A stretch of 33,823 bases of DNA from Hyphomicrobiales bacterium (GTDB taxonomy: Bacteria; Pseudomonadota; Alphaproteobacteria; Rhizobiales; Xanthobacteraceae): positions 1-33,823 of the forward strand of contig JAGXAC010000018.1 in NCBI GenBank assembly GCA_019075925.1, written 5' to 3'. Positions 220 through 30,943 of this stretch are shown here, one piece after another. The notes beneath the pieces are model-generated. The model saw nothing but the letters and a program-made list of their open reading frames with translations, made no database searches and had not been told where the DNA came from. Positions within the stretch are counted from its first letter, which is position 1. Each line of letters opens with the position of its first letter. A program made the translations under genes and the position numbers.

Positions 220-258
220 TACGTCGTTCCCCCTGCGGCGCTTGACCCGGTCCAGCTA

Positions 259-275
259 ATATATGAGACATATAT
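259..275. promoter_or_regulatory. AT-rich inverted repeat, candidate operator
   Basis: ATATATG-AGA-CATATAT is a perfect dyad with 7-base arms and a 3-base spacer, in otherwise GC-rich DNA. It sits 28 bases before the panB-like start and between two divergent genes. The size and symmetry suit a dimeric regulator, and the GntR protein encoded one gene downstream is the obvious candidate. Its right arm shares the octamer ATATATCA with a second palindrome at 2260-2269. Confidence 0.45.
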
Positions 276-303
276 CACAACCACCGGGGCCGGGAAACGG
301 TCG

Positions 304-1224
304 ATGGCAACCAGCACGGACAGCAAGAGCGGGACGACGGCGCCGGCGGCGAACAAGCCCGATGCCGAGCGCAAGAAGCGCACCATCACCGAGATTCGCG
401 AGTCAAAAAAGACCGGCGAGAAAATGGTCTACATGTCGGTGCCGGATTATACCTCGGCCAAATGGGCCGAGCTCGCCGGCATCGACGTCGCGGTGGTCGG
501 CGACTCTCTGGCAATGGTCGCGCACGGCCACGCGAGCACCATCCCGGCCACCATGGACATGATGGTGATGCATGCGCAGGCGGTCCGGCGCGGCGCCCCC
601 AACACCTTCTCGCTCGGCTGCATGCCCTACCAGAGCTACCACACCGTGGAGCGGGCGCTGACCAACGCCACGCGGTTCATGCAGGAGGCGTTGTGCGACG
701 CGGTCAAGCCGCAAGGCGGCAAATCGCAGGCCCACATTTTGCGTGCGCTGGTCGACGCCGGAATCCCGACCGCCTCGCATATCGGGCTGACGCCGCACAC
801 CATCGCCATGTTCGGCGGCTTCAAGATTCAGGGCCGCACCGCCGATGCGGCGATGAAGATTCTCGAAGACGCGCTGGCGATCGAGGATGCCGGCTGCTTC
901 ATGCTGGAATTCGAGGCGGTGCCGGCGAAAATCGCCCGGCTGATTTCGGAGCAGCTCACCATCCCGACCATCGGCATCGGTGCGGGCGTCGGCTGCGACG
1001 GGCAAATCTTGCTATGTTACGACCTGCTCGGCGTGTTCACTGACTTCAAGCCGAAATTCACCAAGCGCTATACCAAGCTGACCGAAGTCGCCGTTGCCGG
1101 CATCACCCAATACATCAGGGAAGTGAAGGACGGTTCGTTCCCGGACGATGAACATTCCTATTCGGTCAACGAAGCCGAGTACGAGAAGTTCGCGGCGATG
1201 GTCGCCAAACGAAAGCAGATGTGA
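304..1224 (+). CDS. PanB-like ketopantoate hydroxymethyltransferase paralog
   Basis: This 306-residue protein aligns along its length with PanB, the enzyme that uses methylene-tetrahydrofolate to add a hydroxymethyl group to ketoisovalerate. Visible PanB motifs are VGDSL (D67), RRGAPN, GLTPH, FGGFKIQGR, FEAVP (catalytic Glu, E204) and GIGAG. Compared from memory with E. coli PanB, Asp84 reads Cys106 (SLGCMPY) and Glu114 reads Gln137 (VKPQGG), so two of the residues around the metal differ. There is no panC beside it. It is followed after one base by a GntR regulator, which suggests an inducible, probably catabolic role rather than pantothenate synthesis. The ORF track extends to 118, but that part overlaps the divergent gene and the dyad; ATG 304 with GGGAA upstream is preferred. 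The family call is firm; the reaction is open. Confidence 0.8.
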   Translation: MATSTDSKSGTTAPAANKPDAERKKRTITEIRESKKTGEKMVYMSVPDYTSAKWAELAGIDVAVVGDSLAMVAHGHASTIPATMDMMVMHAQAVRRGAPNTFSLGCMPYQSYHTVERALTNATRFMQEALCDAVKPQGGKSQAHILRALVDAGIPTASHIGLTPHTIAMFGGFKIQGRTADAAMKILEDALAIEDAGCFMLEFEAVPAKIARLISEQLTIPTIGIGAGVGCDGQILLCYDLLGVFTDFKPKFTKRYTKLTEVAVAGITQYIREVKDGSFPDDEHSYSVNEAEYEKFAAMVAKRKQM

Positions 1225-1225
1225 C

Positions 1226-1927
1226 ATGCCGCGGCCGCAAACCGCCGCATTGCGACGGCCGCGCCAAAGCGTGCGAACCGCGCCGACCGATACGCTGACT
1301 GACCAGGCTTATCGGCTGATCGAGGAGCAAATCGTCACGCTGCGGCTCAAGCCGGGCGACGTTCTTTCCGAGCAGATGCTGTCGGCGACATTCAAGATCG
1401 GCCGTACCCCGATCCGCGAAGCCCTGCATCGGCTGGCGCACGAAGGGCTGGTGACGATCCTGCCGCGCAAGGGCATCCTGGTCACCGACCTCAACCCGCG
1501 CCACCAGCTTTTGGTGCTGGAAGTGCGCCGCGAACTGGAGCGGCTATTGAGTCGGGCCGGCGCCGAGCGGGCGACGGCCGAGCAGCGCGAACAACTGCAG
1601 GAGATCGCCCGCGGCATGGACCGCGCCGCCAAAGGCAACGACGACATCGCTTTCATGCGGCTCGATCGCGAGTTCAACCGTGTCATGGTAGATTCCGCCC
1701 ATAACGGCTACGCCGCGCGTTCGATGAAACTCATCCAGGGACTGTCGCGACGGTTCTGGTACATGCACTATCGGGAGGCCGCCGATTTGCCGCTGTGCGC
1801 ACGCTTGCACGCCAATCAGGCGCGCGCGATCGCGCAGGGTAACGGCGAAGCGGCTGCCCGCGCCAGCGACAAGCTGATCGATTACGTTGAAGCTTTCACC
1901 CGCGCCACGGTGTCGATGCGGCCATGA
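1226..1927 (+). CDS. GntR family regulator, FadR/FCD subfamily
   Basis: This 234-residue transcription factor has an N-terminal winged helix (about residues 23-85, with the motif GRTPIREALHRLAHEGLV) and a helical FCD ligand-binding domain after it. Regulators of this type are usually repressors released by an organic acid. In the FCD domain the first metal motif, often FHxxL, reads FNRVM, so an Asn replaces the usual His. The start at 1226 comes one base after the PanB-like stop, and its last bases overlap the next start (ATGA at 1924), so the three genes are very probably cotranscribed. The longer ORF from 1148 would run inside the preceding gene and is rejected. Likely targets are the dyads at 259-275 and 2260-2269. 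Confidence 0.88.
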   Translation: MPRPQTAALRRPRQSVRTAPTDTLTDQAYRLIEEQIVTLRLKPGDVLSEQMLSATFKIGRTPIREALHRLAHEGLVTILPRKGILVTDLNPRHQLLVLEVRRELERLLSRAGAERATAEQREQLQEIARGMDRAAKGNDDIAFMRLDREFNRVMVDSAHNGYAARSMKLIQGLSRRFWYMHYREAADLPLCARLHANQARAIAQGNGEAAARASDKLIDYVEAFTRATVSMRP

Positions 1928-2223
1928 AAATCTACGAGGGCAAGCGCACCATCGATGGCCTCGTCGTCACGGTCGACGGCAACAGGCTGGCGGAGCATTA
2001 CGAGGTCAAGCAATTCACCAGGCGCGGCTTCGAATGGACCTATGAAGGGGCGAGCCCGCAGCAACTGGCTCTGGCGATCCTGGTCGAACATCTCGGCGAC
2101 GCCGAACGCGCCGTCGCGCTGTCGGAACCGTACATGCAAGACGTGATCGCCAATCTCGACAACGAGTGGCGGCTGACCGGTGATGACGTCGATGCCTATC
2201 TGCGCGCGAGCCGCGGCCGCTAG
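1924..2223 (+). CDS. DUF6166 family small protein
   Basis: This 99-residue soluble protein begins MKIYEGKRTIDGLVVTVDG and contains FEWTYEGASPQQLALAILVEHLGD, a pattern I recognise as the DUF6166 family. That family has no established function and often appears as a short conserved protein beside unrelated genes. There is no signal peptide or membrane segment. The start overlaps the GntR stop (ATGA), which implies translational coupling, so it probably belongs to the panB-like/GntR unit. Whether it modulates the regulator or acts in metabolism cannot be told from sequence. Confidence 0.75.
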   Translation: MKIYEGKRTIDGLVVTVDGNRLAEHYEVKQFTRRGFEWTYEGASPQQLALAILVEHLGDAERAVALSEPYMQDVIANLDNEWRLTGDDVDAYLRASRGR

Positions 2224-2259
2224 GCGCATTGTCGCCGGCTGCCGGCTGTGATAGATGCG

Positions 2260-2269
2260 TGATATATCA
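2260..2269. promoter_or_regulatory. TGATATATCA palindrome, candidate operator
   Basis: This perfect 10-base palindrome lies 49 bases upstream of the hydroxylase start, and is flanked by GTCGCC (2231-2236) and GGCGAC (2270-2275), which are themselves inverted. It shares ATATATCA with the dyad in front of the panB-like gene, so the same GntR protein may bind both. No binding data can be inferred beyond symmetry and position. Confidence 0.35.
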
Positions 2270-2317: not shown

Positions 2318-3088
2318 ATGATCAGCCAGCGCCAGATCGAATTCCGCCAGGAATACCGTTCCCGCATCCTCGGCTGGTATGACGGTTACCTGCATCTGAT
2401 CATCATCTACGCCATGGGTGCCGCGGCGTTCTACATCTATGTCGAGCACATCCACCGGGTGACCGCGCTGGAATGGCTGACGGTGCCGCTGACCTTCCTG
2501 CTCACTAATTTGTTCGAGTGGGCGGTGCATAAATACGTGATGCACCGGCCGATCGACATCAAAGGCCTGCGGTCGATCTACGAGCGGCACACGCTCAATC
2601 ATCACCAGTTCTTCACCGACGAGGAAATGCGCTTCCGCGATCACAAGGATTGGCGGGTGACGGTGTTCCCGCCGTTCGCACTGGTGGTATTCATCCTGAT
2701 GTCGCTGCCCGCTGCGGCCATTCTCGGCTCGATCTTCACCGCCAATGTCGGCTGGCTGTTCATGGCAACCACCAGCGGCATGTATCTGATCTATGAGTTC
2801 ATGCACTTTTGCTGCCACGTCGACGAAAACGCCTTCGTCCGCCATTGCCCATTCGTCAACTCGCTGCGCCGGCACCACACCGCGCACCACAACGCGCGAC
2901 TGATGATGGAGGTCAACATGAACCTGACCTTCCCGATCGCCGACTGGTTCTTCGGCACCTCGGATCTCGACCGCGGCCTCGTCGGCACCTTGCTCAATGG
3001 CTATGAGACGCGCTTCCTGAAGAAGAACCTGCGCGGTCGCCCGCGGTTGCCCAACGAGGCGGCGGCGACCCCGGTCGGCACCAACTAG
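2318..3088 (+). CDS. Fatty acid hydroxylase superfamily membrane protein
   Basis: This 256-residue integral membrane protein belongs to the di-iron fatty acid hydroxylase/sterol desaturase superfamily. The histidine clusters are all present: H71-x4-H76 (HKYVMHR), H91-x3-HH (HTLNHH), H163-x3-H167 (HFCCH) and H186-H-x2-HH191 (HHTAHH). Hydrophobic helices lie around residues 25-45, 54-69, 117-137 and 143-160. Such enzymes use O2 and two irons to hydroxylate or desaturate lipids at the membrane; the substrate here is unknown and could be a fatty acyl, carotenoid or polycyclic lipid. The track start at 2303 is a TTG overlapping the GGGAGA ribosome-binding site, so ATG 2318 is chosen. It lies downstream of the GntR unit, separated by a palindrome and a hairpin. 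Confidence 0.82.
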   Translation: MISQRQIEFRQEYRSRILGWYDGYLHLIIIYAMGAAAFYIYVEHIHRVTALEWLTVPLTFLLTNLFEWAVHKYVMHRPIDIKGLRSIYERHTLNHHQFFTDEEMRFRDHKDWRVTVFPPFALVVFILMSLPAAAILGSIFTANVGWLFMATTSGMYLIYEFMHFCCHVDENAFVRHCPFVNSLRRHHTAHHNARLMMEVNMNLTFPIADWFFGTSDLDRGLVGTLLNGYETRFLKKNLRGRPRLPNEAAATPVGTN

Positions 3089-5201: not shown

Positions 5202-5930
5202 TTATGCAACGATCGAACGGCGAGCGACGCCGATCAGCCGGTCGAGCCGCGTGCGGTCCTGCTTCAACGGCTCGCTCATGCCGTCGTAGGTGATGCGGCC
5301 GCGGTCCATCACTACGATTCGCGGCGCCAGATCGAGCGCAAGCCGGGTATTTTGCTCGACGACAACAAGGGTTAGCCCCTGCGCGTCGGCCAAGTGTCGG
5401 ATCGCACGCGTCAGCTCTTCGACGTTTACCGGCGCCAGCCCCTCCGACGGCTCATCCATCAGAATCGCCGCCGGGTTGCCGACGAGCGCGCGTGCAATCG
5501 CCAGCATTTGCTGCTCGCCGCCGGACAACTGGCCGCCCCAATTCCGCTGGCGCTCCTGCAGCTTGGGAAACAGCTCGAACACCGAGGCGACCGTCCAAGA
5601 TCCCGGCCGTGCCGCGACTTCGAGATTTTCCCGCAGCGTGAGCGAGGGAAATATCTCGCGCTCCTGCGGCACGTAACCCAGTCCCGCCGCCACGCGCCGG
5701 TGCGGCGGAAGCCTGCTGATGTCGCGGCCGTGCAGACGGATGACGCCGCGATGCAGCGTCGTATGGCCCATGACGGTGGACAGCAGCGTCGTCTTGCCGA
5801 CGCCGTTGCGTCCGATGATCGCCAACGTCTCGCCGGCTTTGACGCCAAGCTGCACGTTCTCGATGATCACGGTCTCGCCGTAGCCGCCGGAAACCGCGTC
5901 GAGTTCGAGCGCCAATGCGGAGTCAGCCAC
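5202..5930 (-). CDS. livF: Branched-chain amino acid type ABC transporter ATP-binding protein LivF
   Basis: This 242-residue ATPase has Walker A (GRNGVGKTT), the Q-loop region, signature LSGGEQQ, Walker B (AILMDEPSEGLAP) and the switch histidine region reduced to VVVEQN, as usual in LivF. It pairs with LivG on the inner face of the membrane to drive import. Transporters of this family carry branched-chain amino acids but in these bacteria often carry aromatic acids, amides or other small organic acids. The start is GTG 5930, overlapping the livG stop by 8 bases. It is the last gene of the livKHMGF operon. Confidence 0.92.
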   Translation of the reverse strand: MADSALALELDAVSGGYGETVIIENVQLGVKAGETLAIIGRNGVGKTTLLSTVMGHTTLHRGVIRLHGRDISRLPPHRRVAAGLGYVPQEREIFPSLTLRENLEVAARPGSWTVASVFELFPKLQERQRNWGGQLSGGEQQMLAIARALVGNPAAILMDEPSEGLAPVNVEELTRAIRHLADAQGLTLVVVEQNTRLALDLAPRIVVMDRGRITYDGMSEPLKQDRTRLDRLIGVARRSIVA

Positions 5931-6687
5931 GGGACGGCTCCCGTTTTTCGCCGAGATAGATCGCGCGTACGCGCGGATCGGCGGAAATCTCGTCCGGAGT
6001 GCCTTCGGTCAGCACTGCTCCGGCAGCTAAAACGGTGATCCGCCTGGCGAAACGAAACACGACGTCCATGTCGTGTTCGATAATCAGCACGGCGATATTC
6101 GGATCGAGCTGCGAGATCACATCGAGGATCAGATGGCTTTCCGACGACGGCACGCCGGCCGCCGGCTCGTCGAGCAGCAGTAGCTTCGGCCGCTGCGCCA
6201 GCGCGATGGCGATTTCGACGAGGCGCTGCCGGCCGTAGGGTAATTCGCGCACCGGCCGGCTTGCATCGGAGATCAGCGCCAGCGATTGCAGATGATCAAG
6301 CGCTTCCGCGATCACCGCGGTTTCGCGGCCGGCGGATCGCCATAACCGGTTGCACGCGCCGGTGCGCTCGCCGATCGCCAGATAGATGTTTTCCAGCACG
6401 GTGAGGTTGCGAAAAAGCTGATTGACCTGAAAGGTGCGGGCGATGCCTCGGCGGGTGCGCGCCGCTTGCGACAGCGAGGTAATCTCGTCGCCGTCGAGCA
6501 ATACCTTGCCGGACGACGCCCGCACTCGGCCGGTGATCAGATTGACCAGAGTGGTTTTGCCGGCGCCGTTCGGCCCAATCAAGGCATGGCGGGCGCCGCG
6601 CGGCAAAGCGAGGCTGATGCCGCTCGCGACTTCCAGCGCGCCAAAGTTTTTCCGCAAGTCGCGGATTTCGAGCGCTGCCGCGGTCAT
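5923..6687 (-). CDS. livG: Branched-chain amino acid type ABC transporter ATP-binding protein LivG
   Basis: This 254-residue ATPase has Walker A (GPNGAGKTT), a LivG-type signature (LPYGRQRLVEIA, in place of LSGGQ), Walker B (LLLLDEPAAGV) and the switch motif IIEHDMD. FQVNQLFRNLTVLENI is the typical LivG Q-loop stretch. I chose ATG 6687 rather than 6702 because it makes an ATGA overlap with the livM stop, the standard junction in such operons; the earlier start adds only MAYPA. It works with LivF, LivH and LivM. Confidence 0.92.
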   Translation of the reverse strand: MTAAALEIRDLRKNFGALEVASGISLALPRGARHALIGPNGAGKTTLVNLITGRVRASSGKVLLDGDEITSLSQAARTRRGIARTFQVNQLFRNLTVLENIYLAIGERTGACNRLWRSAGRETAVIAEALDHLQSLALISDASRPVRELPYGRQRLVEIAIALAQRPKLLLLDEPAAGVPSSESHLILDVISQLDPNIAVLIIEHDMDVVFRFARRITVLAAGAVLTEGTPDEISADPRVRAIYLGEKREPSRG

Positions 6688-7721
6688 GGCTGGGTACGCC
6701 ATCGCAACAGCCGGTCGACGTTCAGCACCCTGAGCAACGTGCCGCGCCGGACAAGTAAAACGACGCCGATCAGCAACAGCCCGACGCCGAACTGCCAGAA
6801 TTCGGGGCTCGCCTTCGCCAGCTCATTTTGCAGCACCATGTACAGCGCGGCGCCGATGAAAGCCCCGTACAGCCGGCCGGCGCCGCCGAGGATGAGCATG
6901 ACCAGTACCGCCGCCGACTGGTCAAAGTCGAACACGCCAAGCGTGACGAAAGCGTTGGTCTGGGCAAACAGCGCGCCGGCGATGCCGGCGACGGCGGCCG
7001 AGATGGTGTAGGCAACTACCAGCCGCCAATGCACCGGTGAGCCGATCGCGTTCATGCGGCTGACGTTCTCCCGGATGCCGACCAGCGCTTGGCCGAACGG
7101 CGAATGGACGATCCGCCGCACGCAATAAAACACGATCAACAACACCCCGAGGCAATACAGATAATAGGTGTGGCCATAGATGTCGTAGTTGAACCGCCCG
7201 AACAGCGGCGCGATGTTGACGCCTGGAATGCCGTCATAACCGCCGGTGAAGTCGCGAAACAGATTGCCGCATTGCTGAAGCATAATGGTGGTCGAGAGCG
7301 TCAGAACCAGGAAGGCAAGGCCGCGGTAGTGCAGCAGGAGCCAACCGGACAGGAAGCCGGCAACGGCCGCGACGAGCGCACCGCACAGCACGCCGGAAAT
7401 CGGTTCGCTCCAGCCGAGATCGATAATCAGAAGCGACGCGCCATAGGCGCCGAGGCCGAAGAATGCCGCATGGCCGAGCGTGACGATCCCGGCATAGCCG
7501 AGAATCAAATCGAGTGACAGCGCAAACACGATCATGATCAAGGTTTGGCTGCCCAACACCATCTGGTTCGGAAAAATGAAAAACGCTGCGACGGCGGCGA
7601 GCCACGGCAGCGCTTCGGGGGGGCTGAAACGGCCGCGCCGCGCCAGCAGGCCGGCGGCGCGCGCGCGTTCGGCTGCAATCTCGCCGCCTGCATACGGCGA
7701 CAGGGATTTACTCGCGTCCAT
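6684..7721 (-). CDS. livM: Branched-chain amino acid type ABC transporter permease LivM
   Basis: This 345-residue permease has around nine hydrophobic helices and the LivM family motifs LGYAGIVTLGHAAFFGLGAYGAS and, near the C terminus, LILGGAGRLYGAFIGAALYM. A 40-residue polar N-terminal tail precedes the first helix. It forms the membrane channel with LivH. Its start overlaps the livH stop by 14 bases and its stop overlaps the livG start, so translation is coupled through the operon. Confidence 0.92.
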   Translation of the reverse strand: MDASKSLSPYAGGEIAAERARAAGLLARRGRFSPPEALPWLAAVAAFFIFPNQMVLGSQTLIMIVFALSLDLILGYAGIVTLGHAAFFGLGAYGASLLIIDLGWSEPISGVLCGALVAAVAGFLSGWLLLHYRGLAFLVLTLSTTIMLQQCGNLFRDFTGGYDGIPGVNIAPLFGRFNYDIYGHTYYLYCLGVLLIVFYCVRRIVHSPFGQALVGIRENVSRMNAIGSPVHWRLVVAYTISAAVAGIAGALFAQTNAFVTLGVFDFDQSAAVLVMLILGGAGRLYGAFIGAALYMVLQNELAKASPEFWQFGVGLLLIGVVLLVRRGTLLRVLNVDRLLRWRTQP

Positions 7722-8571
7722 AAAGTCCCGTCGGCTTGAACAGCAGGATCAGCACCGCAACCGCGTAGATGGCGAAGGTGCCGGCGTCGGAGAAAAAATA
7801 TTTGCCGGCGGTATCGGACATGCCGAGCACCAGCGCGCCGACGAGCGTCCCCCATATGCTGCCGGAGCCGCCGACCGCGACGACCAGCAGAAAGAAGACC
7901 AGATAGATGATGGCGAAGTTCGGGGTGAGGCCGAGCAACTGAATGGCAAGGCCGCCGCCCAGCGCGGCGAGCCCGCTGCCGACGGCGAACGTGATGGTGA
8001 ACAACAGATCGACGTCGATGCCGACCGATTGCGCCATACGCCGGTTGTCCACCGAGGCGCGGATCTTGGCGCCGATATTGGTGCGGTCGAAGCCGTACCA
8101 CAGAGCGGCAACCAGCGCCGCGCCGACGACGATCAGGAACACGCGATAGGCCGGGAAGCTCCGCGCGCCGACATTGATCTGGCCGGCAAGATAATCGGGA
8201 ATCCGGATGGCGTGCGTCAGCGGCCCGTAAAAATAGGTATAGGCGGCAATCGCCATGAACGTCAGCCCGATGGTCATCAGCACCTGATCAAGTTCGCCGG
8301 CGCCGTAGAGCCTGGCATAGAGTGCGCGTTCGAACAGCACACTGGCGGCGCCGACGACGACGAAGGTGATGGCAAGCGCGCCGAGAAACGGCACGCCCCA
8401 CGTGCTCGTCGCAGTCAGGACGAGGTAGCCGCCCGCCATGGCGAACGCGCCGTGCGCCAGATTGACGAAGCCCATCAGTCCCATCGTCACCGACAGGCCG
8501 ATCGACACGATAAAAAGGAACATCGACCAGGCCAGGCCGTCGAACAGGATGCTGACGATGGTGTTGACCAT
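7708..8571 (-). CDS. livH: Branched-chain amino acid type ABC transporter permease LivH
   Basis: This 287-residue permease has family motifs GLMGFVNLAHGAFAMAGGYL near the N terminus and VVAVGGSGSIWGTLVGALVLG near the C terminus, with about eight hydrophobic helices. The track start at 8580 is a GTG; ATG 8571 gives the usual LivH beginning (MVNTIVSILFDGLA), but neither has a clear Shine-Dalgarno, so the start is uncertain by three codons. It is separated from livK by 98 bases that hold a strong hairpin. Confidence 0.92.
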   Translation of the reverse strand: MVNTIVSILFDGLAWSMFLFIVSIGLSVTMGLMGFVNLAHGAFAMAGGYLVLTATSTWGVPFLGALAITFVVVGAASVLFERALYARLYGAGELDQVLMTIGLTFMAIAAYTYFYGPLTHAIRIPDYLAGQINVGARSFPAYRVFLIVVGAALVAALWYGFDRTNIGAKIRASVDNRRMAQSVGIDVDLLFTITFAVGSGLAALGGGLAIQLLGLTPNFAIIYLVFFLLVVAVGGSGSIWGTLVGALVLGMSDTAGKYFFSDAGTFAIYAVAVLILLFKPTGLYGRE

Positions 8572-8600
8572 GGGCGACACGCTTCAACCCCGGCGTCGAT

Positions 8601-8641
8601 GCGCCAGCCGCGGCGAGGATACCGGCCGCGGCCGCCGGCGC
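8601..8641 (-). promoter_or_regulatory. Hairpin between livK and livH
   Basis: GCGCC-A-GCCGCGGC pairs with GCCGCGGC-CGCC-GGCGC around a 10-base loop: an 8-base-pair inner stem and a 5-base-pair outer stem with an internal bulge. It sits just after the binding-protein gene and before the permease genes. In solute-binding-protein operons such structures commonly lower downstream expression or protect the upstream message, giving an excess of binding protein. No T-run is seen. Confidence 0.45.
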
Positions 8642-8669
8642 AAAGCCGATCGCGCCGAAGTCGCGCGCG

Positions 8670-9881
8670 TTACAAACCCGATCCGCAGCGGCCGAGCTTG
8701 AGAACCTTGCACTCGTCCTTCACCGCCGGGTAGGTCTCCAGCACCTTGATGCCGAGCTTGCCGTCTGCTTTCTTGATGACCTCCTCGGCGCGCTCCGGCT
8801 GAATGATGTCGCGCGTTTGCGGATCGATCTCGATCGGTCCGCGGACGCCTTCGTGCTTCCATCCCTTCAGCGCATCGATCACTTTGGCGCCGTCGTCCAA
8901 GTTGCCATGCAGCGTGTTGATGACGTGGAAGATGCCCGCCATCGTATCCATGCCGGCCGCCGACATGAAATCGGGATAGGAGTTCGGACCGTAGGCCTCG
9001 TGCCACGCTTTGACGAAGGCCTGATTGCCCGGGGTGTCCAGGTCGTCGGAATAGCTTGCCATCACCACCAGGCCGATGGCCGCGTCGCTCATATGCGCCA
9101 GTTCATAATCGGGAATGAGATCCATCGGGCCGATCAGCCGGATGCCGGCTTTACGCATGTTGAGGTCGCCGTAGGTCTTCATCACGCCGGCGGCGTGCGA
9201 ACCGGACGGAACGAAGACGTAGAAACAATCGGGATGCTCGTCCTTCACGCGCTGGAAAAACGGCGTAAAGTCCGGCACCGGCCCCGGCGGTCCCAAGCGG
9301 ACCTCGTCGACCACCTTGCCGCCGGCTTTTTCAAAAGCGGTCTTGAAAGCCAGCGTCGAATCCTGTCCCGGCGGAAAATCGGTGAAGGCGGCGGCGGCGG
9401 TTTTACAGTTGAACTTCGTCGCCGCGTAGGTGCCCATCGGGTAAGCCGGGTCCCACATGCTGAACGAAAAGCGCGCGATGTAGGGCGACAAATTGGTAAT
9501 CCACGCGGTGCCCGCATTGGCGATGAGCATCGGCATTTTGACCTGCGTCACCAGCGGCGCCACCGCGATGGCCGACGGCGAAAACACAAAACCGGTAAGC
9601 AACTTCACTTTGTCGTTGGTGATGAGTTCGGTGACCACGGTTCTGGCATTGGCGCCGGAAGGCGGACCTTCGTCGCGTTTGATCAGTTCGATCTTGTTGT
9701 CGCCGAGGTCCTTGGCGTGCAGCTTGACGTAAAGGTCGAATGCCTTGTCGATTTGATTGCCGAGATCGGACATCGGACCCGAATACGGCAGCACGACGCC
9801 GATTTTGATCGTCTCTGCGCTGGCCGCTCCGAGGGAGCAAAATCCGAACAGCGCAGCTGCAAGCGCTCCGGCGACCTTCAT
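8670..9881 (-). CDS. livK: Periplasmic substrate-binding protein of Liv-type ABC transporter
   Basis: This 403-residue protein has a clear signal peptide (MKVAGALAAALFGFCSLGAASA, predicted cut before ETIKIG) followed by a two-lobed type I periplasmic binding fold (KIGVVLPYSGPMSDLGNQ, typical of the Peripla_BP_6 family). It captures the ligand in the periplasm for LivHMGF. The ligand is unknown; the neighbourhood of aromatic-degradation genes suggests an aromatic or other organic acid rather than leucine, but this is inference. ATG 9881 is preferred to 9911 because AAGGAG lies 9 bases upstream and the signal peptide begins there. First gene of the operon, divergent from folD. Confidence 0.9.
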   Translation of the reverse strand: MKVAGALAAALFGFCSLGAASAETIKIGVVLPYSGPMSDLGNQIDKAFDLYVKLHAKDLGDNKIELIKRDEGPPSGANARTVVTELITNDKVKLLTGFVFSPSAIAVAPLVTQVKMPMLIANAGTAWITNLSPYIARFSFSMWDPAYPMGTYAATKFNCKTAAAAFTDFPPGQDSTLAFKTAFEKAGGKVVDEVRLGPPGPVPDFTPFFQRVKDEHPDCFYVFVPSGSHAAGVMKTYGDLNMRKAGIRLIGPMDLIPDYELAHMSDAAIGLVVMASYSDDLDTPGNQAFVKAWHEAYGPNSYPDFMSAAGMDTMAGIFHVINTLHGNLDDGAKVIDALKGWKHEGVRGPIEIDPQTRDIIQPERAEEVIKKADGKLGIKVLETYPAVKDECKVLKLGRCGSGL

Positions 9882-9940
9882 GATGCGTCTCCTTGGGTTT
9901 CTTCCCAACACGCGAGCGTTCCACGATGGGCGAGGTTTGC

Positions 9941-9969: not shown

Positions 9970-10061
9970 TTCTGCAATGGCAAAATCGGCCACGGACAAA
10001 ACAAAAGCCGCGTCGGTGTGCCGCATAGAAAGCGGTGTGTTGCGGCGGGGCAGGCAGGACA

Positions 10062-10949
10062 ATGACGAAGCGGATCGACGGGAGGGCGCGCGCAGACCGT
10101 TTGGTCGCCGATGTCGCGGCAGCGGCCGCACAGCTGAAAGCCGTCGCCGGCTTGGCGCCGGGGCTTTGTGCCGTTCTGGTCGGCGACGATCCAGCCAGCC
10201 AGGTATACGTTCGCAACAAAGGCAAGGCGGCGATCGCGGCCGGGATCAACAGCTTTCAGGAACATTTGCCGGCGAGCGCCAGCGAAGCCGAACTGCTGGC
10301 GTTGATCGCCGGGCTCAATTCCGACGATCGGGTTGACGGCATTCTGGTGCAGTTGCCGCTGCCCAGGCATATCGATCCCCAGCGGGTCATCGACGCCATC
10401 GATCCCGGCAAGGATGTCGATGGCTTCCACGCGCTCAATGTCGGCCGTTTGTGGAGCGGCGGATGGAACCGCGCGCTGCTGCCGTGCACGCCTTACGGCT
10501 GTCTGCTGATGCTGCGCGGCGAGTTGACCGATCTTGCCGGCGCCGATGCGGTCGTGCTCGGGCGTTCCAACATTGTCGGCAAGCCGATGGCGGCGCTGTT
10601 ATTGGCGGAGAACTGCACCGTCACGCTGGCGCATTCTAAAACCCGTGACATCGCCACGCTCTTGCGCCGCGCCGATATTCTGGTGGCGGCGGTGGGTCGG
10701 CCGGAATTCGTGCGCGGCGACTGGATCAAGCCGGGCGCCGTCGTCATCGACGTCGGCATCAATCGCGTTTCGGCCGCTGATGGAAAATCGACGCTCGTCG
10801 GCGACGTGGCGTTCGCCGAGGCACAAGGAATTGCCGGCGCGATCACGCCGGTGCCGGGCGGCGTCGGCCCGATGACCATCGCCTGTCTGTTGCGCAATAC
10901 GTTGATCGCCGCGTGCCGCCGGCGCGGCCAGGCGGAGCCGCAACTCTAG
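10062..10949 (+). CDS. folD: Bifunctional methylene-THF dehydrogenase/methenyl-THF cyclohydrolase FolD
   Basis: This 295-residue protein converts methylene-tetrahydrofolate to formyl-tetrahydrofolate with NADP. Family motifs are complete: YVRNK (active-site Tyr and Lys), [22 protein letters not shown], the nucleotide loop [11 protein letters not shown], and [11 protein letters not shown]. Length is normal. ATG 10062 is chosen over 10035 because GGCAGGA lies just upstream. It is divergent from livK across 180 bases. Position beside uptake and ring-cleavage genes, and about 9 kb from a PanB-like enzyme that would use methylene-THF, hints at a dedicated C1 role, but it may simply be the housekeeping copy. 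Confidence 0.93.
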
Positions 10950-17021: not shown

Positions 17022-17050
17022 CGCTGATTTGCCTCGACACTTCCGTTGGC

Positions 17051-17105
17051 CCCAACAGGTGCTATCTCGTCATATAATTGGCAAGCCGGGCCGTCCACTG
17101 TTGGG
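17051..17105. promoter_or_regulatory. Candidate hpnB promoter with flanking inverted repeat
   Basis: A consensus TATAAT is at 17073-17078, 55 bases before the hpnB start. It lies between two halves of an 8-base inverted repeat: CCCAACAG (17051-17058) and CTGTTGGG (17098-17105). The left half belongs to a smaller dyad, GTTGG-CC-CCAAC (17045-17056). No convincing -35 was found at 16-18 bases. The region also has to serve the divergent ispA. Confidence 0.4.
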
Positions 17106-17132
17106 CCGCCCGGCTGCTACCAAAGGCTATCT

Positions 17133-18305
17133 GTGACGAACGAAGTTATAGGGTCAATGGCGCTGGTGATCTGGCTCTACTTGCTGGCCGGACGCGGTGG
17201 ATTCTGGCTGGCGGGGGAGCGCGACGAGGGGACCCCCGACCAGCCGCGGCGCTGGCCGGCAATTGCCGCCGTTATTCCGGCGCGCGACGAAGCCGACTGC
17301 GTGGGAGAGACCGTCGCTTCGCTCTTAGGCCAGGATTATTCCGGCACATTCACCATCATTTTGGTGGACGACCAAAGCCGCGACGGGACCGCGCAGGTCG
17401 CGCGAGACGCCGCCGCGGCGCTTGGCGCCGCCGAGCGCGTTCGCGTGCTGACGGGGCGGCCCTTGCCGGCCGGCTGGACCGGAAAGTTATGGGCGCAGCA
17501 TCAGGGCGTCGAAGCCGCCGAAGCGATGGCGCCGCAGCCGGATTACCTGCTTCTCACCGATGCCGATATCGTCTACGGGCCGGACTCACTCGCGGCGCTC
17601 GTCGCGCGGGCGTCTTCGCGCGGTACTGTGCTGACGTCGCTGATGGTGAAGCTGCGCTGCCGCAGTCTTGCCGAGCACGTTTTCGTTCCGGCCTTTATTT
17701 TCTTTTTCCAGATGCTCTATCCGTTCGGCTGGGCGAACGATCCGCGCCGCGCCACCGCGGCGGCAGCCGGCGGCTGCATGCTGGTGCGCCGAACTGCATT
17801 GAAAGCGGCGGGCGGCATGGCAGCGATACGCAATGCGCTGATCGACGACTGCGCGCTGGCCAAGAAACTAAAAGAGCACGGGCCGATCTGGATCGGCCTG
17901 ACCGATCGCGTCCACAGCCTGCGTGCCTATCCGGCCGTGGCCGACATCCGTCACATGGTTTCGCGCACCGCTTACGCGCAACTCAATTATTCGCCGCTGC
18001 AGCTTGCGGGTACCATCGCCGGTCTTGCGCTGACCTATCTTGCCCCCGTGCTGCTGGCGTTGTTCGCAACCGGTACCGCCGGTGTGCTCGGCATTGCCGT
18101 TTGGCTCATGATGGCGGTGGCCTTCCAGCCGACGCTGCGATTCTATCGCCTGTCCCCGCTCTGGGGACTGGCATTGCCGGCGATCGCCGCCGCCTATATG
18201 GCGTTCACGCTTGATTCCGCTTATCAGCATGCGCGCGGACGCGGCGGCATGTGGAAGGGCCGCGCCCAGGCTGATGTTCGCGATAACGTTTCGGAAGCAC
18301 GATGA
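17133..18305 (+). CDS. hpnB: Hopene-associated glycosyltransferase HpnB
   Basis: This 390-residue family 2 glycosyltransferase is membrane-attached. It has an N-terminal helix (IGSMALVIWLYLLAG), then the GT-A domain with AVIPARDEADCVGETVASLL, ILVDDQSRDGT and LTDADI, the DxD-type sugar-nucleotide site. Three more helices lie near the C terminus. HpnB is named for its constant place in hopanoid operons; its acceptor is not established. GTG 17133 with AAAGG upstream is chosen because it keeps the whole first helix; ATG 17157 is possible. The stop overlaps the hpnC start (ATGA), so it leads the hpnBCDE-shc operon. Confidence 0.88.
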   Translation: MTNEVIGSMALVIWLYLLAGRGGFWLAGERDEGTPDQPRRWPAIAAVIPARDEADCVGETVASLLGQDYSGTFTIILVDDQSRDGTAQVARDAAAALGAAERVRVLTGRPLPAGWTGKLWAQHQGVEAAEAMAPQPDYLLLTDADIVYGPDSLAALVARASSRGTVLTSLMVKLRCRSLAEHVFVPAFIFFFQMLYPFGWANDPRRATAAAAGGCMLVRRTALKAAGGMAAIRNALIDDCALAKKLKEHGPIWIGLTDRVHSLRAYPAVADIRHMVSRTAYAQLNYSPLQLAGTIAGLALTYLAPVLLALFATGTAGVLGIAVWLMMAVAFQPTLRFYRLSPLWGLALPAIAAAYMAFTLDSAYQHARGRGGMWKGRAQADVRDNVSEAR

Positions 18306-19207
18306 GTGAAGCAGGCATCGATGCCGGCGCCGACGCCGGCACCTGGCGGTCGGGCAAGGGACACCGGGATGAGAATTTCCCGGTCGCGTCATTCCTTATC
18401 CATCCGCGCCACCGTACCGCGATCCTGGCATTCTATAATTTCGTGCGCACCGCGGACGATATCGCCGATCATGCGACTCTGCCGCCGGCCGAAAAGCTTC
18501 GTTTGCTGGATCGGCTCGACGCCGGCCTCGTCGGTGCCGATGCCGAAGATCCGGCCGCGGTGCGGTTGCGCGCGGCGCTGGCCGAGCGAAATCTGTCGCC
18601 AAAGCATGCGCAAGACCTGCTCGCCGCCTTCAGGCTCGACGTCACCAAGCTGCGGTACAAGGATTGGGACGATCTGATCGGCTATTGCTCGTTGTCGGCG
18701 ATGCCGGTCGGCCGCTTCGTCTGCGACGTGCATGGCGAGAGCCGCGCCGTCTGGCCGGCGAACGACGCGCTATGCGCGGCGCTGCAGATCATCAATCATC
18801 TGCAAGATTGCAAGGACGACTATCGCAATCTCGACCGGGTCTATGTTCCGCAGGATGCGCTCGCAGCCGGCGGCGTCAACGTTGCGGCGCTCGGCGAACC
18901 GCAAGCATCGTCCGCATTGCTCGCGGTCCTGCATGGTCTCGCCGCGCGTACCGAGCGGCTACTCGCCGAAAGCGATGTGTTCGCGCTATTGATCGAGGAC
19001 CGGCGGCTCGCTCTGGAGGTTTCGGTCATCAACACCCTGGCGCACCGGCTGACCCGGCTGTTGATGGCGCGCGATCCGTTGCACGACCGTGTACACCTGC
19101 CGGTGCCCGCAGTCGCCGGCTGGACGCTTGCCGGCATCCTTAACGGCGCCGCGCGCCGATTGGGCCGGCGCTCTTCGACGACGACGCACAAGCCGCGGGG
19201 TGCGTGA
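18302..19207 (+). CDS. hpnC: Hydroxysqualene synthase HpnC
   Basis: This 301-residue protein is of the squalene/phytoene synthase fold. Visible motifs are RTADDIADH, SAMPVGRF and the second aspartate-rich NHLQDCKDDYRNLDR. By established work on this family HpnC converts presqualene diphosphate, made by HpnD, into hydroxysqualene. It overlaps hpnB by ATGA and ends directly against the hpnD start. Length and motifs are normal. Confidence 0.92.
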   Translation: MSEAGIDAGADAGTWRSGKGHRDENFPVASFLIHPRHRTAILAFYNFVRTADDIADHATLPPAEKLRLLDRLDAGLVGADAEDPAAVRLRAALAERNLSPKHAQDLLAAFRLDVTKLRYKDWDDLIGYCSLSAMPVGRFVCDVHGESRAVWPANDALCAALQIINHLQDCKDDYRNLDRVYVPQDALAAGGVNVAALGEPQASSALLAVLHGLAARTERLLAESDVFALLIEDRRLALEVSVINTLAHRLTRLLMARDPLHDRVHLPVPAVAGWTLAGILNGAARRLGRRSSTTTHKPRGA

Positions 19208-20029
19208 GTGACCACGTCGACGCCGGTGGCGCAAACCGCCTCCCGCAGCTCGTTCTATTTAGGCATGCGCATCCTGCCGCCCGCGCAGCGCGAGGCGATG
19301 TACGAAATCTATTCGTTCTGCCGGGCGGTCGATGACATCGCCGACGATCCCGGACCGCGCGAGCCGCGCCGCCGGCAATTGGCGCAATGGCGCGCGGATG
19401 TCGATGCGATCTACGCGGGGACGCCGCCGCCCGCGTTCGGCGGGCTGGCGCGCGCGGTGCACAGTTTCGATCTGCAACGCGAAGACCTGCATGCCATCAT
19501 CGACGGCATGGACATGGACGTGATCGCCGACATCCGGGCGCCTGACCGCGCGACGCTCGATCTTTATTGCGACCGCGTCGCCTGTGCGGTGGGCCGCCTG
19601 TCCGTGCGCGTGTTTGGCATGCCGCAGGACGCGGGTCGCGCGCTTGCGCATCATCTGGGCATGGCGTTGCAATTGACCAACATCCTGCGCGATCTCGATG
19701 AGGACGCGTCGCTCGGCCGGCTTTACTTGCCGCGCGAAGCCTTGCAGGCGCATGGCATCGCCGCCACCGACCCCGGAACGGTCTTGGCGCATCCGGCCCT
19801 CGCCAAGGTCTGTAACGAAATCGTCGTGCTTGCGGAGCAGAATTTTCGGAAAGCGCGCGAGATCATGGCGCAAAACTCGCGGCGCGTGGTGCGGGCGCCG
19901 CGCATCATGGGCGAGGGATATCACGTCATTCTCGAGGGCCTGGTTGCGCGCGGATTTGCGCCGCCGCGGCAACGGGTCAGGCTGCCGCGCGTGCGGCTTC
20001 TTTTCATTGTCTTGCGCAATCTGGTGTGA
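19208..20029 (+). CDS. hpnD: Presqualene diphosphate synthase HpnD
   Basis: This 273-residue protein of the squalene/phytoene synthase fold has SFCRAVDDIADD, YCDRVACAVG and QLTNILRDLDEDA. HpnD joins two farnesyl diphosphates head to head into presqualene diphosphate, the first committed step to squalene. The start is a GTG directly after the hpnC TGA with no gap, and the stop overlaps the hpnE start by one base (TGATG). The farnesyl diphosphate presumably comes from the divergent ispA. Confidence 0.92.
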   Translation: MTTSTPVAQTASRSSFYLGMRILPPAQREAMYEIYSFCRAVDDIADDPGPREPRRRQLAQWRADVDAIYAGTPPPAFGGLARAVHSFDLQREDLHAIIDGMDMDVIADIRAPDRATLDLYCDRVACAVGRLSVRVFGMPQDAGRALAHHLGMALQLTNILRDLDEDASLGRLYLPREALQAHGIAATDPGTVLAHPALAKVCNEIVVLAEQNFRKAREIMAQNSRRVVRAPRIMGEGYHVILEGLVARGFAPPRQRVRLPRVRLLFIVLRNLV

Positions 20030-21276
20030 TGAGCGGAACTGTTCACATCATCGGCGCCGGCCTTGCCGGTCTTTCCGCTGCGGTGCGGCTTTCGGCGCGC
20101 GGCCGGACTGTCGTCGTGCATGAGGCGACGGCGTTTGCCGGCGGCCGCTGCCGCTCCTACCACGACGCTTCGATCGGCATGACGATCGACAACGGCAATC
20201 ACCTGCTGCTGTCCGGCAATCGCGCCGCCCTCGATTATCTGCGCAGTCTAGGCGCCGAGGATCGGCTGGTCGGCCCGTCGAACGCGGAATTTTCGTTCGT
20301 CGATCTCGCCGGGGACCGGCGCTGGACCTTGCGTTTCAACGATGGGCGCATTCCCTTCTGGGTGCTGGATGCCAAGCGGCGAGTGCCGGATACCAACGTT
20401 CTCGATTATCTACCGCTGGCGCGGTTGCTGTGGGCCGGCCGGGGTAAAACTGTCGGCGAGGTCATCGCCTGCAAGGGCGTCCTGTATGACCGGCTGGTCG
20501 AGCCGCTCTTGCTGGCGGCGCTCAACATCGACGCGCCGCTCGGTGCGGCGCGGCTCGCCGGTGCGGTGATCCGCGAGACGCTCGCCTCCGGCGGACGCGC
20601 TTGCCGGCCGCTGATCGCGCGCGACGGATTGGGACCGACGCTGGTCGAGCCGGCGCTCGCCCACTTGAAGGCGCGCGGCGTCGAGGTGCACATGGAGCAC
20701 CAGCTCCGGTCGGTGCAGCTCGGCGCGGAGCGGGCGGAAGCTCTCGATTTCGGCCGCGAGACCCTCGAACTCGGCCGTAACGACACGGTGATCCTTGCCG
20801 TGCCACCCTACATTGCCGCTGGGCTGCTGCGCGAGCTTGTCGTGCCGACCGAGTTTCGCGCCATCGTCAATGCGCATTTCCGCATCGCACCGCCGGCGAC
20901 ACTGCCGCCGATCCTCGGTGTGCTCAACGCCACGGTGCAATGGATCTTCGCATTTCCGGGTCGGGTTTCGGTCACCGTCAGCGCCGGCGACCGGCTCATC
21001 GACGTGCCGCGCGAAGAACTTGCCAGGAAAATCTGGAGCGATGTCGCCCGCGCGAGCGGATTGCCGCCTGAATTGCCGCCGTGGCAGATCGTGCGCGAGC
21101 GGCGCGCGACTTTTGCCGCCACGCCCGCACAGGACGCGCGTCGGCCGGGCGCCGCCACCCGCTGGCATAATCTTGTTCTTGCCGGCGATTGGACGGACAC
21201 CGGGCTGCCCGCTACCATCGAAGGCGCGATTAGATCCGGCAACCGAGCCGCCGAAATTATTGCGAACCGGCCATGA
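20029..21276 (+). CDS. hpnE: Hydroxysqualene reductase HpnE (FAD-dependent)
   Basis: This 415-residue flavoprotein has an N-terminal Rossmann motif (HIIGAGLAGLSAAVRLSARG) and a C-terminal FAD contact (LVLAGDWTDTGLPATIEGAIRSG) as in phytoene desaturase-like oxidoreductases. HpnE reduces hydroxysqualene to squalene, finishing the HpnCDE route. The track start is a GTG at 20026; ATG 20029 is preferred and shares one base with the hpnD stop. The stop overlaps the shc start (ATGA). Confidence 0.92.
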   Translation: MSGTVHIIGAGLAGLSAAVRLSARGRTVVVHEATAFAGGRCRSYHDASIGMTIDNGNHLLLSGNRAALDYLRSLGAEDRLVGPSNAEFSFVDLAGDRRWTLRFNDGRIPFWVLDAKRRVPDTNVLDYLPLARLLWAGRGKTVGEVIACKGVLYDRLVEPLLLAALNIDAPLGAARLAGAVIRETLASGGRACRPLIARDGLGPTLVEPALAHLKARGVEVHMEHQLRSVQLGAERAEALDFGRETLELGRNDTVILAVPPYIAAGLLRELVVPTEFRAIVNAHFRIAPPATLPPILGVLNATVQWIFAFPGRVSVTVSAGDRLIDVPREELARKIWSDVARASGLPPELPPWQIVRERRATFAATPAQDARRPGAATRWHNLVLAGDWTDTGLPATIEGAIRSGNRAAEIIANRP

Positions 21277-23267
21277 TCGAAGACGCGTTACAACGACAAA
21301 ATCGCTCCCCGGAGCAGGCCGCGTCGGCGCGCTCGCCCGGTGAATCGCTCGACCGACATATCCATAAGGCGACGCAAGCGCTGCTCGCGCAGCAGCGTCC
21401 CGATGGTCATTGGGTATTCGAACTTGAAGCCGATTGCACCATTCCGGCCGAGTATGTGCTGCTGCGGCATTATCTCGGCGAGCCCGTCGATGCCGCGCTC
21501 GAAGCCAAGATCGCAGTCTATCTGCGCCGTACCCAAGGCGAGCACGGCGGCTGGCCGTTATTCCGCGACGGCGATCTCGACATCAGCGCGACGGTGAAGG
21601 CGTATTTCGCGCTCAAGATGATCGGCGATCCGATCGATGCCGTTCACATGCGGCGCGCACGCGAAGCCGTGCTGGCCCGCGGCGGCGCCGAGCGCGCCAA
21701 TGTCTTCACCCGCATCATGCTGGCGTTGTTCGGCTTTATTCCGTGGCGCGCGGTGCCGGTGATTCCGGTCGAGGTCATGCTGCTGCCGAAGTGGTTTCCG
21801 TTCCACCTCGACAAAATTTCCTATTGGAGCCGCACCGTCATCGTGCCGCTGTTGGTGCTGATGGTGAAGAAGCCGCGCGCGCACAACGCCAAGAACGTGC
21901 GCATCGACGAATTATTTGTGGCGCCGCCGCAGAGCATCGGCCCGACGCCGAAAGCGCCGCAGCAGAAGGCGTCGTGGTTCTGGTTTTTCCGCGGCGTGGA
22001 CAACGTTCTGCGCGCTGCGGAGCCGTCCTTTCCCACGCGAACGCGCCAGCGCGCCATCGACGCCGCGGTCGCCTGGGTGAGCGAAAGATTGAACGGCGAG
22101 GACGGTCTCGGCGCGATTTTTCCGGCGATGGCGAATTCGGTGATGATGTTCGCGGCGCTCGGTTATCCGGAAAATCACCCGCAGCGCGCCATCGCGCGCA
22201 AGTCGGTGGAGAAGCTCCTGGTCGTGCATGAGCACGAAGCCTATTGCCAGCCCTGCGTTTCGCCGATCTGGGATACCGGCCTGACCTGTCACGCGCTGCT
22301 GGAGGTCGGCGGTGAGAACGTGGAAGCGTCGGTCAAGCGCGGCCTCGATTGGCTGGTGCCGATGCAGGTGCTCGACGTGCGCGGCGACTGGATCGCGCGT
22401 CGCGGCGGCATCCGTCCCGGCGGCTGGGCGTTCCAATACGCCAACCCGCATTATCCCGACGTCGACGATACCGCCGTCGTCGCCATGGCGATGGATCGGG
22501 TGCAAAATCTGTCCGGCCGGCAGACCTATCGCGACAGCCTTGCGCGTGCGCGCGAATGGATTTTGGGAATGCAGAGTTCGAACGGCGCCTGGGGCGCGTT
22601 CGACGCCGACAATGAATATTATTATTTGAACAACATTCCGTTCGCCGATCACGGCGCGCTGCTCGACCCACCGACCGAGGATGTCACCGCGCGCTGCCTG
22701 TCGATGCTCGCGCAATTTGGCGAGACAGCGGAAAACAGCGCGGCGGTGGCGCGCGGCGTCGATTATCTACGGCGCACGCAGCTTGCCGAAGGAAGCTGGT
22801 TCGGCCGCTGGGGCATGAACTACATCTACGGCACCTGGTCGGTGTTGTGCGCGCTCAACATGGTGGGGATCGATCACCAGGCGCCGGAGATGCGCAAGGC
22901 GGTGGAATGGCTTGCCGCCATTCAGAACGCGGACGGCGGCTGGGGCGAAGACGGCGCAAGCTACAAGCTCGACTATCGCGGCTATGAACCGGCGCCGTCG
23001 ACTGCGTCACAGACCGCCTGGGCGCTCCTTGGCCTGATGGCGGCCGGCGCAATCGATCATCCGGCGGTCGTGCGCGGCATCGATTATCTGGCACGCAGCC
23101 AGGGTGCGGACGGCTTCTGGGACGAGCCTCGCTACACCGCGACCGGTTTCCCGCGCGTATTCTATCTGCGCTACCACGGCTATGCGAAATTCTTCCCGCT
23201 GTGGGCGATGGCGCGCTACCGCAACCTCAAACGCGGCAACGCCAAGAGCGTCGCGTGGGGGATGTAG
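21273..23267 (+). CDS. shc: Squalene-hopene cyclase
   Basis: This 664-residue cyclase (HpnF) folds squalene into the five-ring hopene or hopanol. The catalytic acid motif DVDD is at 396-399, and several QW repeats are present (QGEHGGW, QSSNGAW, QLAEGSW, QNADGGW, QGADGFW). A membrane-entry region rich in Trp, Phe and Pro lies around 145-180 (FIPWRAVPVIPVEVMLLPKW). Length is usual for the family. Last gene of the plus-strand hpn operon; HpnG, which often follows, is absent, and the next gene faces the opposite way. Confidence 0.96.
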   Translation: MIEDALQRQNRSPEQAASARSPGESLDRHIHKATQALLAQQRPDGHWVFELEADCTIPAEYVLLRHYLGEPVDAALEAKIAVYLRRTQGEHGGWPLFRDGDLDISATVKAYFALKMIGDPIDAVHMRRAREAVLARGGAERANVFTRIMLALFGFIPWRAVPVIPVEVMLLPKWFPFHLDKISYWSRTVIVPLLVLMVKKPRAHNAKNVRIDELFVAPPQSIGPTPKAPQQKASWFWFFRGVDNVLRAAEPSFPTRTRQRAIDAAVAWVSERLNGEDGLGAIFPAMANSVMMFAALGYPENHPQRAIARKSVEKLLVVHEHEAYCQPCVSPIWDTGLTCHALLEVGGENVEASVKRGLDWLVPMQVLDVRGDWIARRGGIRPGGWAFQYANPHYPDVDDTAVVAMAMDRVQNLSGRQTYRDSLARAREWILGMQSSNGAWGAFDADNEYYYLNNIPFADHGALLDPPTEDVTARCLSMLAQFGETAENSAAVARGVDYLRRTQLAEGSWFGRWGMNYIYGTWSVLCALNMVGIDHQAPEMRKAVEWLAAIQNADGGWGEDGASYKLDYRGYEPAPSTASQTAWALLGLMAAGAIDHPAVVRGIDYLARSQGADGFWDEPRYTATGFPRVFYLRYHGYAKFFPLWAMARYRNLKRGNAKSVAWGM

Positions 23268-23368
23268 CTACAAACCATTTCCGCTCCCTCTTGGGGGCGC
23301 CAGCCAGCTTAAACAGCTACTCGATCATGATGGCGACAGCGCAAACGCCCAACTTATTGGCCGGCTCA

Positions 23369-23384
23369 TTGCGCGGGCGCGCAA
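23369..23384. terminator. Palindrome between convergent shc and hpnH
   Basis: TTGCGCG-GG-CGCGCAA is a perfect inverted repeat inside the 160-base gap between the convergent shc and hpnH stops. It could end transcription from both sides, although the loop would be very short and no T-run is seen. Confidence 0.3.
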
Positions 23385-23427
23385 GCTCGCTTGAAGTTGA
23401 GATTCGCAGCCGGATGGTAAGAGCGAC

Positions 23428-24603
23428 CTAGGCGGCGCTCACTGATGTCTTGGCCGCTTGTTTGGCCGCTTCTTTCGCCGCCTTCTCACGCGCCTCGTTG
23501 GCCCGGATCTGCGAGAGCGTGAGCTGCACGTTCGAGTCGAACACGTATTGGGCCGGCCGCTGGTGTGACATATCGATTTCCGGCGCCATCGGACCCTCAG
23601 TCTTGATGCCGCGCCAGGCTACGCCAAGCGCCCGCAGCGGGTGCTGCACGATCTCCTCGGTCGCCGTCGCCTCGTAACCGCAATGCGCCATGCAGTTCGC
23701 GCACTTCTCGTAGCGGCCGGTGCCATAGGCATCCCAGTCGGTCGTCTCCATTAATTCCTTGAACGTCTTGGCATAGCCTTCGCCAAGCAGGTAGCAGGGC
23801 TTCTGCCAGCCGAAAATATTGCGCGTCGGCATGCCCCACGGGGTGCAATGGAATTCCTGGTTGCCGGCGAGGAAGTCGAGGAACATGCTGGAATGAGTGA
23901 TGTTCCAGTTCTTGTTCTTGCCGAGCGCAAAAACCTGCCGGAACAGTTCTTTGGTCTTTTTGCGCGCCAGGAAATGCGCCTGGTCCGGCGCCCGCTCGTA
24001 GGCGTAGCCCGGCGAAATCGAAACGCCGACGCCCATTTCCTTGGCCAGATCGAGGAATTTTGCGATGTCCTCGGCCGGATGTCCGTCGTAGACCGTGCAA
24101 TTGACGTTGACGGTGAAGCCCTTGGCCTGCGCCGCCTTGATTGCCGAAACCGCCTTTTCGTAGCCGCCTTCCATGCATACTGACTTGTCATGGTGCTGTT
24201 TAAGTCCGTCGAGATGCACGGAGAAGAACAGATACGGCGACGGTTCAAACACACTGAGCTTCTTTTCCAGCAGCAGCGCGTTGGTGCACAGTGACACGAA
24301 TTTCTTGCGTGCGACGATGCCCTTGACGATCTCGCCGATCTCTTTGTGGATCAGCGGCTCGCCGCCGGGAATGGCGACCATCGGCGCGCCGCACTCATCG
24401 ACCGCGTCGAGACATTCTTTCACGGAAAGACGCTTGTTCAGAATCGCGTCGGGATAATCGATCTTGCCGCAGCCGAAGCAGGCGAGGTTGCAGCGGAACA
24501 GCGGCTCCAGCATCAGCACCAACGGGTAGCGTTTCTGCCCCGTGAGCTTCTGCTTCATCACATACGTTCCGACGGCAACCTTCTGTCGTAATGATACGGT
24601 CAC
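23428..24603 (-). CDS. hpnH: Adenosyl-hopane synthase HpnH (radical SAM)
   Basis: This 391-residue radical SAM enzyme carries the cluster motif CNLACFGC (C38-x3-C42-x2-C45), AIPGGEPLIH and a C-terminal cysteine pattern (CANCMAHCGYE). It joins the adenosyl group to hopene to make adenosylhopane, the first step in side-chain building. The tail is Ala/Lys-rich and likely flexible. The start is GTG 24603 with AAAGGA 9 bases upstream, giving the usual N terminus for the family. It lies 76 bases downstream of ispH on the same strand, a pairing seen in related bacteria. Confidence 0.94.
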   Translation of the reverse strand: MTVSLRQKVAVGTYVMKQKLTGQKRYPLVLMLEPLFRCNLACFGCGKIDYPDAILNKRLSVKECLDAVDECGAPMVAIPGGEPLIHKEIGEIVKGIVARKKFVSLCTNALLLEKKLSVFEPSPYLFFSVHLDGLKQHHDKSVCMEGGYEKAVSAIKAAQAKGFTVNVNCTVYDGHPAEDIAKFLDLAKEMGVGVSISPGYAYERAPDQAHFLARKKTKELFRQVFALGKNKNWNITHSSMFLDFLAGNQEFHCTPWGMPTRNIFGWQKPCYLLGEGYAKTFKELMETTDWDAYGTGRYEKCANCMAHCGYEATATEEIVQHPLRALGVAWRGIKTEGPMAPEIDMSHQRPAQYVFDSNVQLTLSQIRANEAREKAAKEAAKQAAKTSVSAA

Positions 24604-30936: not shown

Positions 30937-30943
30937 GGCGTCG

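Follow-up and report, generated by a model that had tools for sequence, protein, structure and literature searches.

Ketopantoate hydroxymethyltransferase (PanB, EC 2.1.2.11; PF02548, TIGR00222; structures 1m3u, 3vav and 1oy0) is the closest described relative of the enzyme considered here, which is encoded in a 33,823-nt stretch of DNA (the window) and which we denote PanB*. A more distant comparison is given by the PEP mutase / isocitrate lyase superfamily, including 2-methylisocitrate lyase and 2,3-dimethylmalate lyase, whose members have the same kind of barrel fold and perform Mg-enolate chemistry on 2-oxo or hydroxy acids. Folate is dispensable when PanB works as a metal-dependent aldolase, an activity known with cobalt as well (PMC7610986, PMC7611260), and variants at positions 202, 212 and 214 of the Escherichia coli enzyme alter its substrate scope (PMC7610986). 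In marine bacteria, a corrinoid route of glycine-betaine demethylation uses MtgBCD, DUF1638 and MetF2 (PMC12478193). Related corrinoid, DUF1638, methyl-THF methyltransferase and MTHFR-like genes are found by some PanB* genes and genes of its sister clade, but that paper mentions no panB, and most PanB* loci are without such genes. Searches of the open-access literature (subscription papers lay outside their scope) turned up no account of the PanB* genes as a set, and within that literature we regard PanB* as a new PanB-family branch whose regulon is undescribed.

The open reading frame at positions 304..1224 of the plus strand encodes 306 amino acids. The sequence-only reading had taken it for a PanB-like enzyme with PanB motifs and a retained catalytic Glu, and this held: PF02548 is the one Pfam domain of the protein (319 bits), which also lies above the NCBI TIGR00222 PanB equivalog cut-off (289 versus 207.55 bits). 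When aligned by HMMER with PanB proteins of solved structure, among them that of E. coli (1m3u), the protein showed the same correspondences that had been proposed from motifs, namely D45 to D67 (502-504), D84 to C106 (619-621) and E114 to Q137 (712-714). In the E. coli enzyme (1m3u) the compared residues have their roles around the metal. Of the metal-site trio D45/D84/E114 only D45 is retained, and K112 (K135), H136 (H159) and the catalytic E181 (E204, 913-915) are all present. One genome was scanned for each species, which gave 314 loci encoding relatives; unless another set is named, counts below refer to the best 80 of these (79-93% identity), from Alpha- and Betaproteobacteria. All of the best 80 have C106 and Q137, as do further orthologs that were fetched, so the two residues are due neither to sequencing errors nor to chance. 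In order to list other fixed changes, 115 PanB*-type sequence rows, in which one ortholog sometimes occurs in more than one locus, were compared with 38 canonical rows. The family has also fixed L42V, F87Y, M88Q, V179E (E202, 907-909), Q142H (H165, 796-798) and V214L, Y25 is replaced by Pro in nearly all PanB*-type rows, and D45, S46, K112, H136 and E181 are invariant in these rows. V179 of E. coli PanB is two residues ahead of the catalytic Glu and, judging by strand geometry, the side chain at this position would be directed like that of the catalytic Glu.

The AlphaFold model of PanB* (pLDDT 80.6, pTM 0.80) has low-confidence loops at residues 164-171 and 243-249. Its top Foldseek matches are PanB structures (3vav, 1m3u), with TM-scores to the target of 0.86-0.88, 33-39% identity and E-values of 1e-19 to 1e-26. 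The next fold matches, 2-methylisocitrate lyase and its relatives, have 11-16% identity and E-values of about 1e-8, i.e., far weaker matches than PanB. Both in sequence and in fold, PanB* is thus nearer to PanB than to lyases of the PEP mutase / isocitrate lyase type.

A tree built from 74 sequences places the PanB* family in a single clade (support 100/99) outside the canonical PanB clade, and this clade is still recovered when the signature columns are masked (98/87). Its sister (98/93) is a smaller PanB-like clade, e.g., loci L164-L170, which has the same Gln, Glu and His signature but Ser or Ala in place of the Cys; its nearest member is about 53% identical to PanB*, and the loci read have neither DUF6166 nor FA_hydroxylase genes as neighbours. 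Canonical PanBs are separate from both. PanB* therefore has the PanB fold but stands as a family of its own, sister to ketopantoate hydroxymethyltransferase. Two other kinds of PF02548 protein were seen in the same material. Loci L133, L134, L135, L136 and L137 hold a third clade, apart from canonical PanB, with Thr at S46 and with D84, E114 and E181 kept. A far paralog at 7732-8586 of L139 (genome G006) keeps D84 and has E114 changed to Asp, H136 to Gln and the catalytic E181 to Thr.

Orthologs of 77-93% identity extend from a 1.3-Mb genome of 30% GC (about 80% identity) through Methylobacterium and Burkholderiales, and several methylotroph genera are among the hosts. The distribution is patchy, as PanB* occurs in 11 of 387 sampled alphaproteobacterial genomes. 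In a plasmid search the sole ortholog was on the large plasmid pMNOD02 of Methylobacterium nodulans (NC_011887.1, locus L185), the other 374 records being below 60% identity. This ortholog is annotated as panB and belongs to a set of panB*, DUF6166, sterol desaturase, MFS and GntR genes adjoining LIV-type ABC genes. In one genome that is 99% complete (G008; 8780-9166 of L138), an in-frame deletion inside panB* takes out about 200 residues, the catalytic core, and the remaining cluster with its operators shows no sign of damage; either natural loss of function or faulty assembly may account for this.

The relation of PanB* to pantothenate synthesis can be read from genomes that contain it. The genome of the window has a second, canonical panB on another contig (C159), and its only panC is on a further contig (C14); this agrees with the earlier statement that panC is not nearby and, along with the separate clade, strongly supports the view of the gene as a paralog. 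Among 13 genomes with panB*, four (G212, G380, G409 and G443) have PanB* as their only PF02548 protein and have no credible panC; two of them (G212 and G443) are single contigs, and the panC match in G380 is only 22 bits over 49 residues. PanB* is thus kept by genomes in which it is unlikely to serve pantothenate synthesis. Since the genome of the window has canonical panB and panC and four relatives lack a credible panC, PanB* is very unlikely to be a pantothenate enzyme. As a separate observation, a PF02548 match of 127 bits lies inside a 624-aa open frame near position 1117316 of contig 1 of genome G083 (L160), which also has PanB* and a canonical PanB adjoining panC.

Genes around panB* were called with codon-position GC, without which GC-rich antisense open reading frames mask genes, and the counts given here are lower bounds as contig ends cut loci. 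One base after the panB* stop, as the sequence-only reading had it, comes the ATG of a GntR/FCD regulator (1226..1927, plus strand; PF00392, PF07729). It is found in 64 of the 80 loci, within 200 bp of panB* in 51, and so the check proposed earlier, whether Cys/Gln is fixed in a clade adjoining GntR genes, came out positive. The regulator gene overlaps by four bases (ATGA) a DUF6166 gene (1924..2223, plus strand; PF19663; 48 of 80 loci), and this is followed by the gene of a membrane FA_hydroxylase / sterol-desaturase-like protein, diiron by family, which has its own operator (2318..3088, plus strand; PF04116; 57 of 80 loci). Divergent from panB*, a small membrane protein gene truncated by the contig end (1..219, minus strand) resembles a neighbour in L033 and has the same position in about 16 loci. 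In relatives, a PhyH dioxygenase is present in 25 of 80 loci, and three carriers occur, never two of them in one locus: TRAP (30), LIV-type ABC (12) or MFS (12). In sequence, the TRAP carrier's binding protein comes closest to 2hzk/2hzl, the latter of which we take to be the 2-oxo-acid binder TakP; ketoacid and lactate binders also match. Neither PhyH nor the LivK-type carrier of the cluster was found in the genome of the window (assembly 88% complete), which makes them accessory and leaves panB*, gntR, DUF6166 and the hydroxylase as the minimal set. Beside some PanB* members there are MtaA/corrinoid, methyl-THF methyltransferase and MTHFR-like genes, and two loci of the Ser/Ala sister clade adjoin MttB-like, RACo-like, methyl-THF methyltransferase and DUF1638 genes (assignments beyond the HMM matches were made by eye).

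Other genes of the window were considered as partners and set aside. The LIV-type ABC genes at 5202-9911, FolD at 10035-10949, which is outside the conserved set, and the ring-cleavage and NMT1-like genes all had no matches, or weak non-orthologous ones, near PanB* in the 80 relatives. Further along the window, by eye, a hopanoid gene cluster at 17046-24603 contains two squalene/phytoene synthase-like genes, a desaturase-like gene, a squalene-hopene cyclase and an HpnH-like radical SAM protein. A BKACE protein at 32868-33797 (540 bits against a curated cut-off of 430 for 3,5-dioxohexanoate:acetyl-CoA acetone transferase) directly follows what by eye is a branched-chain-type ABC carrier set at 29505-32841.

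A 21-bp palindrome, TRATAKA-N7-TATATCA, joins panB* to the hydroxylase gene. The first site, TAATATATGAGACATATATCA (257..277, no strand assigned), matches the pattern exactly and ends 26 bases ahead of the panB* start codon; the second, TGATAGATGCGTGATATATCA (2249..2269, no strand assigned), is ahead of the hydroxylase gene. Two sites in the window compare with 0.03 matches expected, and in the whole 3.55-Mb assembly the operator occurs at exactly these two places. The motif was found ahead of panB* in 47 of 81 upstream regions (that of the window included), compared to 27 of 405 random stretches. A matrix built from upstream regions of panB* orthologs gave 99 sites in 61 of the 80 loci (1.1 Mb), most of them directly preceding panB*, FA_hydroxylase, PhyH, DUF6166/TRAP or corrinoid-methyltransferase genes, and the reversed-matrix control gave no match in the 80 loci. 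Matches at panB* itself are partly circular, as the matrix was trained on these regions, whereas those at other genes, such as the operator ahead of the FA_hydroxylase gene in 29 relatives' loci, are not. Nine of 11 further whole genomes also have sites, one to four each, most of them in the panB* cluster. No sigma-70-like promoter was found near panB*. We infer that the GntR/FCD protein binds the 21-bp operators, and it would respond to a carboxylate ligand. The very high conservation, common operator and interchangeable carriers together point to one definite substrate for the system.

The sequence-only reading had also allowed for a different metal. The idea of a different metal through the Cys was weakened, and a new metal site based on Cys was downgraded, because Ser or Ala occupies that position in the sister clade, whose Gln, Glu and His changes are those of PanB*; C106 is thus probably not a required metal ligand. 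What stays constant in the aligned PanB* and sister-clade sequences is that two carboxylates (D84 and E114) are lost and that Glu202 and His165 are gained. The metal may be held by D67 and newly arranged groups, with E202 and H165 as candidate replacement ligands and C106 non-essential.

The separate and conserved family, the changed metal site, and the operator common with a membrane hydroxylase gene suggest that PanB* probably does one-carbon chemistry on a compound other than the pantothenate precursor. Corrinoid and methyl-transfer neighbours, methylotroph hosts and the kept enolisation residues of PanB suggest that this is C1 chemistry on a 2-oxo acid, and a different aldol or retro-aldol reaction, as proposed earlier, remains plausible. 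Our best explanation, which we hold tentatively and at somewhat less than even chance, is a GntR-controlled regulon in which a substrate is hydroxylated and PanB* then removes a C1 unit from a 2-oxo acid. The substrate would enter the cell, in relatives through TRAP, ABC or MFS carriers, and be hydroxylated by the membrane hydroxylase, with the help of PhyH or a flavoprotein in some species; PanB* would then cleave the beta-hydroxymethyl 2-oxo acid so formed via an enolate, and the carbon would be passed to tetrahydrofolate or released as formaldehyde. PanB chemistry would thereby be turned to C1 removal, not vitamin making. Which way the reaction runs is a guess; we favour release of the hydroxymethyl group, since no other enzyme partner is as constant as the hydroxylase and since relatives have uptake carriers. 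Several points count against this explanation: members of the FA_hydroxylase family often act on lipids and not on small acids, the genome of the window lacks PhyH and the LivK-type carrier of the cluster, and H165, one of the two candidate ligands, sits in a low-confidence loop of the model.

The same regulon could serve the forward reaction, in which PanB* attaches a C1 unit, drawn from methylene-THF or formaldehyde, to a 2-oxo acid for C1 assimilation or detoxification. Canonical PanB works in that direction and accepts formaldehyde (PMC7610986), the methyl-group-handling enzymes beside several members would provide methylene-THF, and there are methylotroph hosts; however, the uptake carriers and oxygenases look catabolic, and the hydroxylase, the most constant enzyme partner, would have no obvious role, so that we consider this direction unlikely, if quite conceivable. 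Loss of D84 and E114, the carboxylates that accompany D45 around the Mg of PanB, together with the place of the PEP mutase / isocitrate lyase superfamily as next in fold, would fit a lyase or hydrolase that acts without C1 transfer on another oxo or hydroxy acid, using the kept Glu, Lys and His. We find this doubtful, as PanB is nearest by far in fold and sequence and as the D45, S46, K112, H136 and E181 set is invariant. Finally, the equivalog score and the annotation of the M. nodulans plasmid ortholog would be expected of an ordinary PanB with tolerated substitutions, kept as a spare copy for pantothenate synthesis. The separate clade with fixed active-site changes, the presence of a canonical copy, the four genomes that keep PanB* without a credible panC, and a regulon of oxygenases and carriers make this highly improbable.

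At least 80 sequenced species carry a PanB*-type enzyme. Vitamin-B5 predictions based on panB can be wrong, since the copy in the window passes the automatic cut-off and PanB* is the only "panB" in four genomes without a credible panC. The active site of PanB* would offer an example from nature of how metal ligands can be rearranged in a C1-transfer aldolase, and the operator with its regulator gives a direct handle for finding the substrate. As a broader and more speculative possibility, which we regard as unlikely at present, the genes would form a widespread, undescribed C-demethylation pathway in which a membrane diiron hydroxylase converts a methyl group beside a 2-oxo group to CH2OH and a PanB descendant with relocated metal ligands transfers C1 to tetrahydrofolate in a retro-aldol reaction. 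If true, such a pathway would feed C1 metabolism in bacteria ranging from streamlined 1.3-Mb alphaproteobacteria to Methylobacterium.
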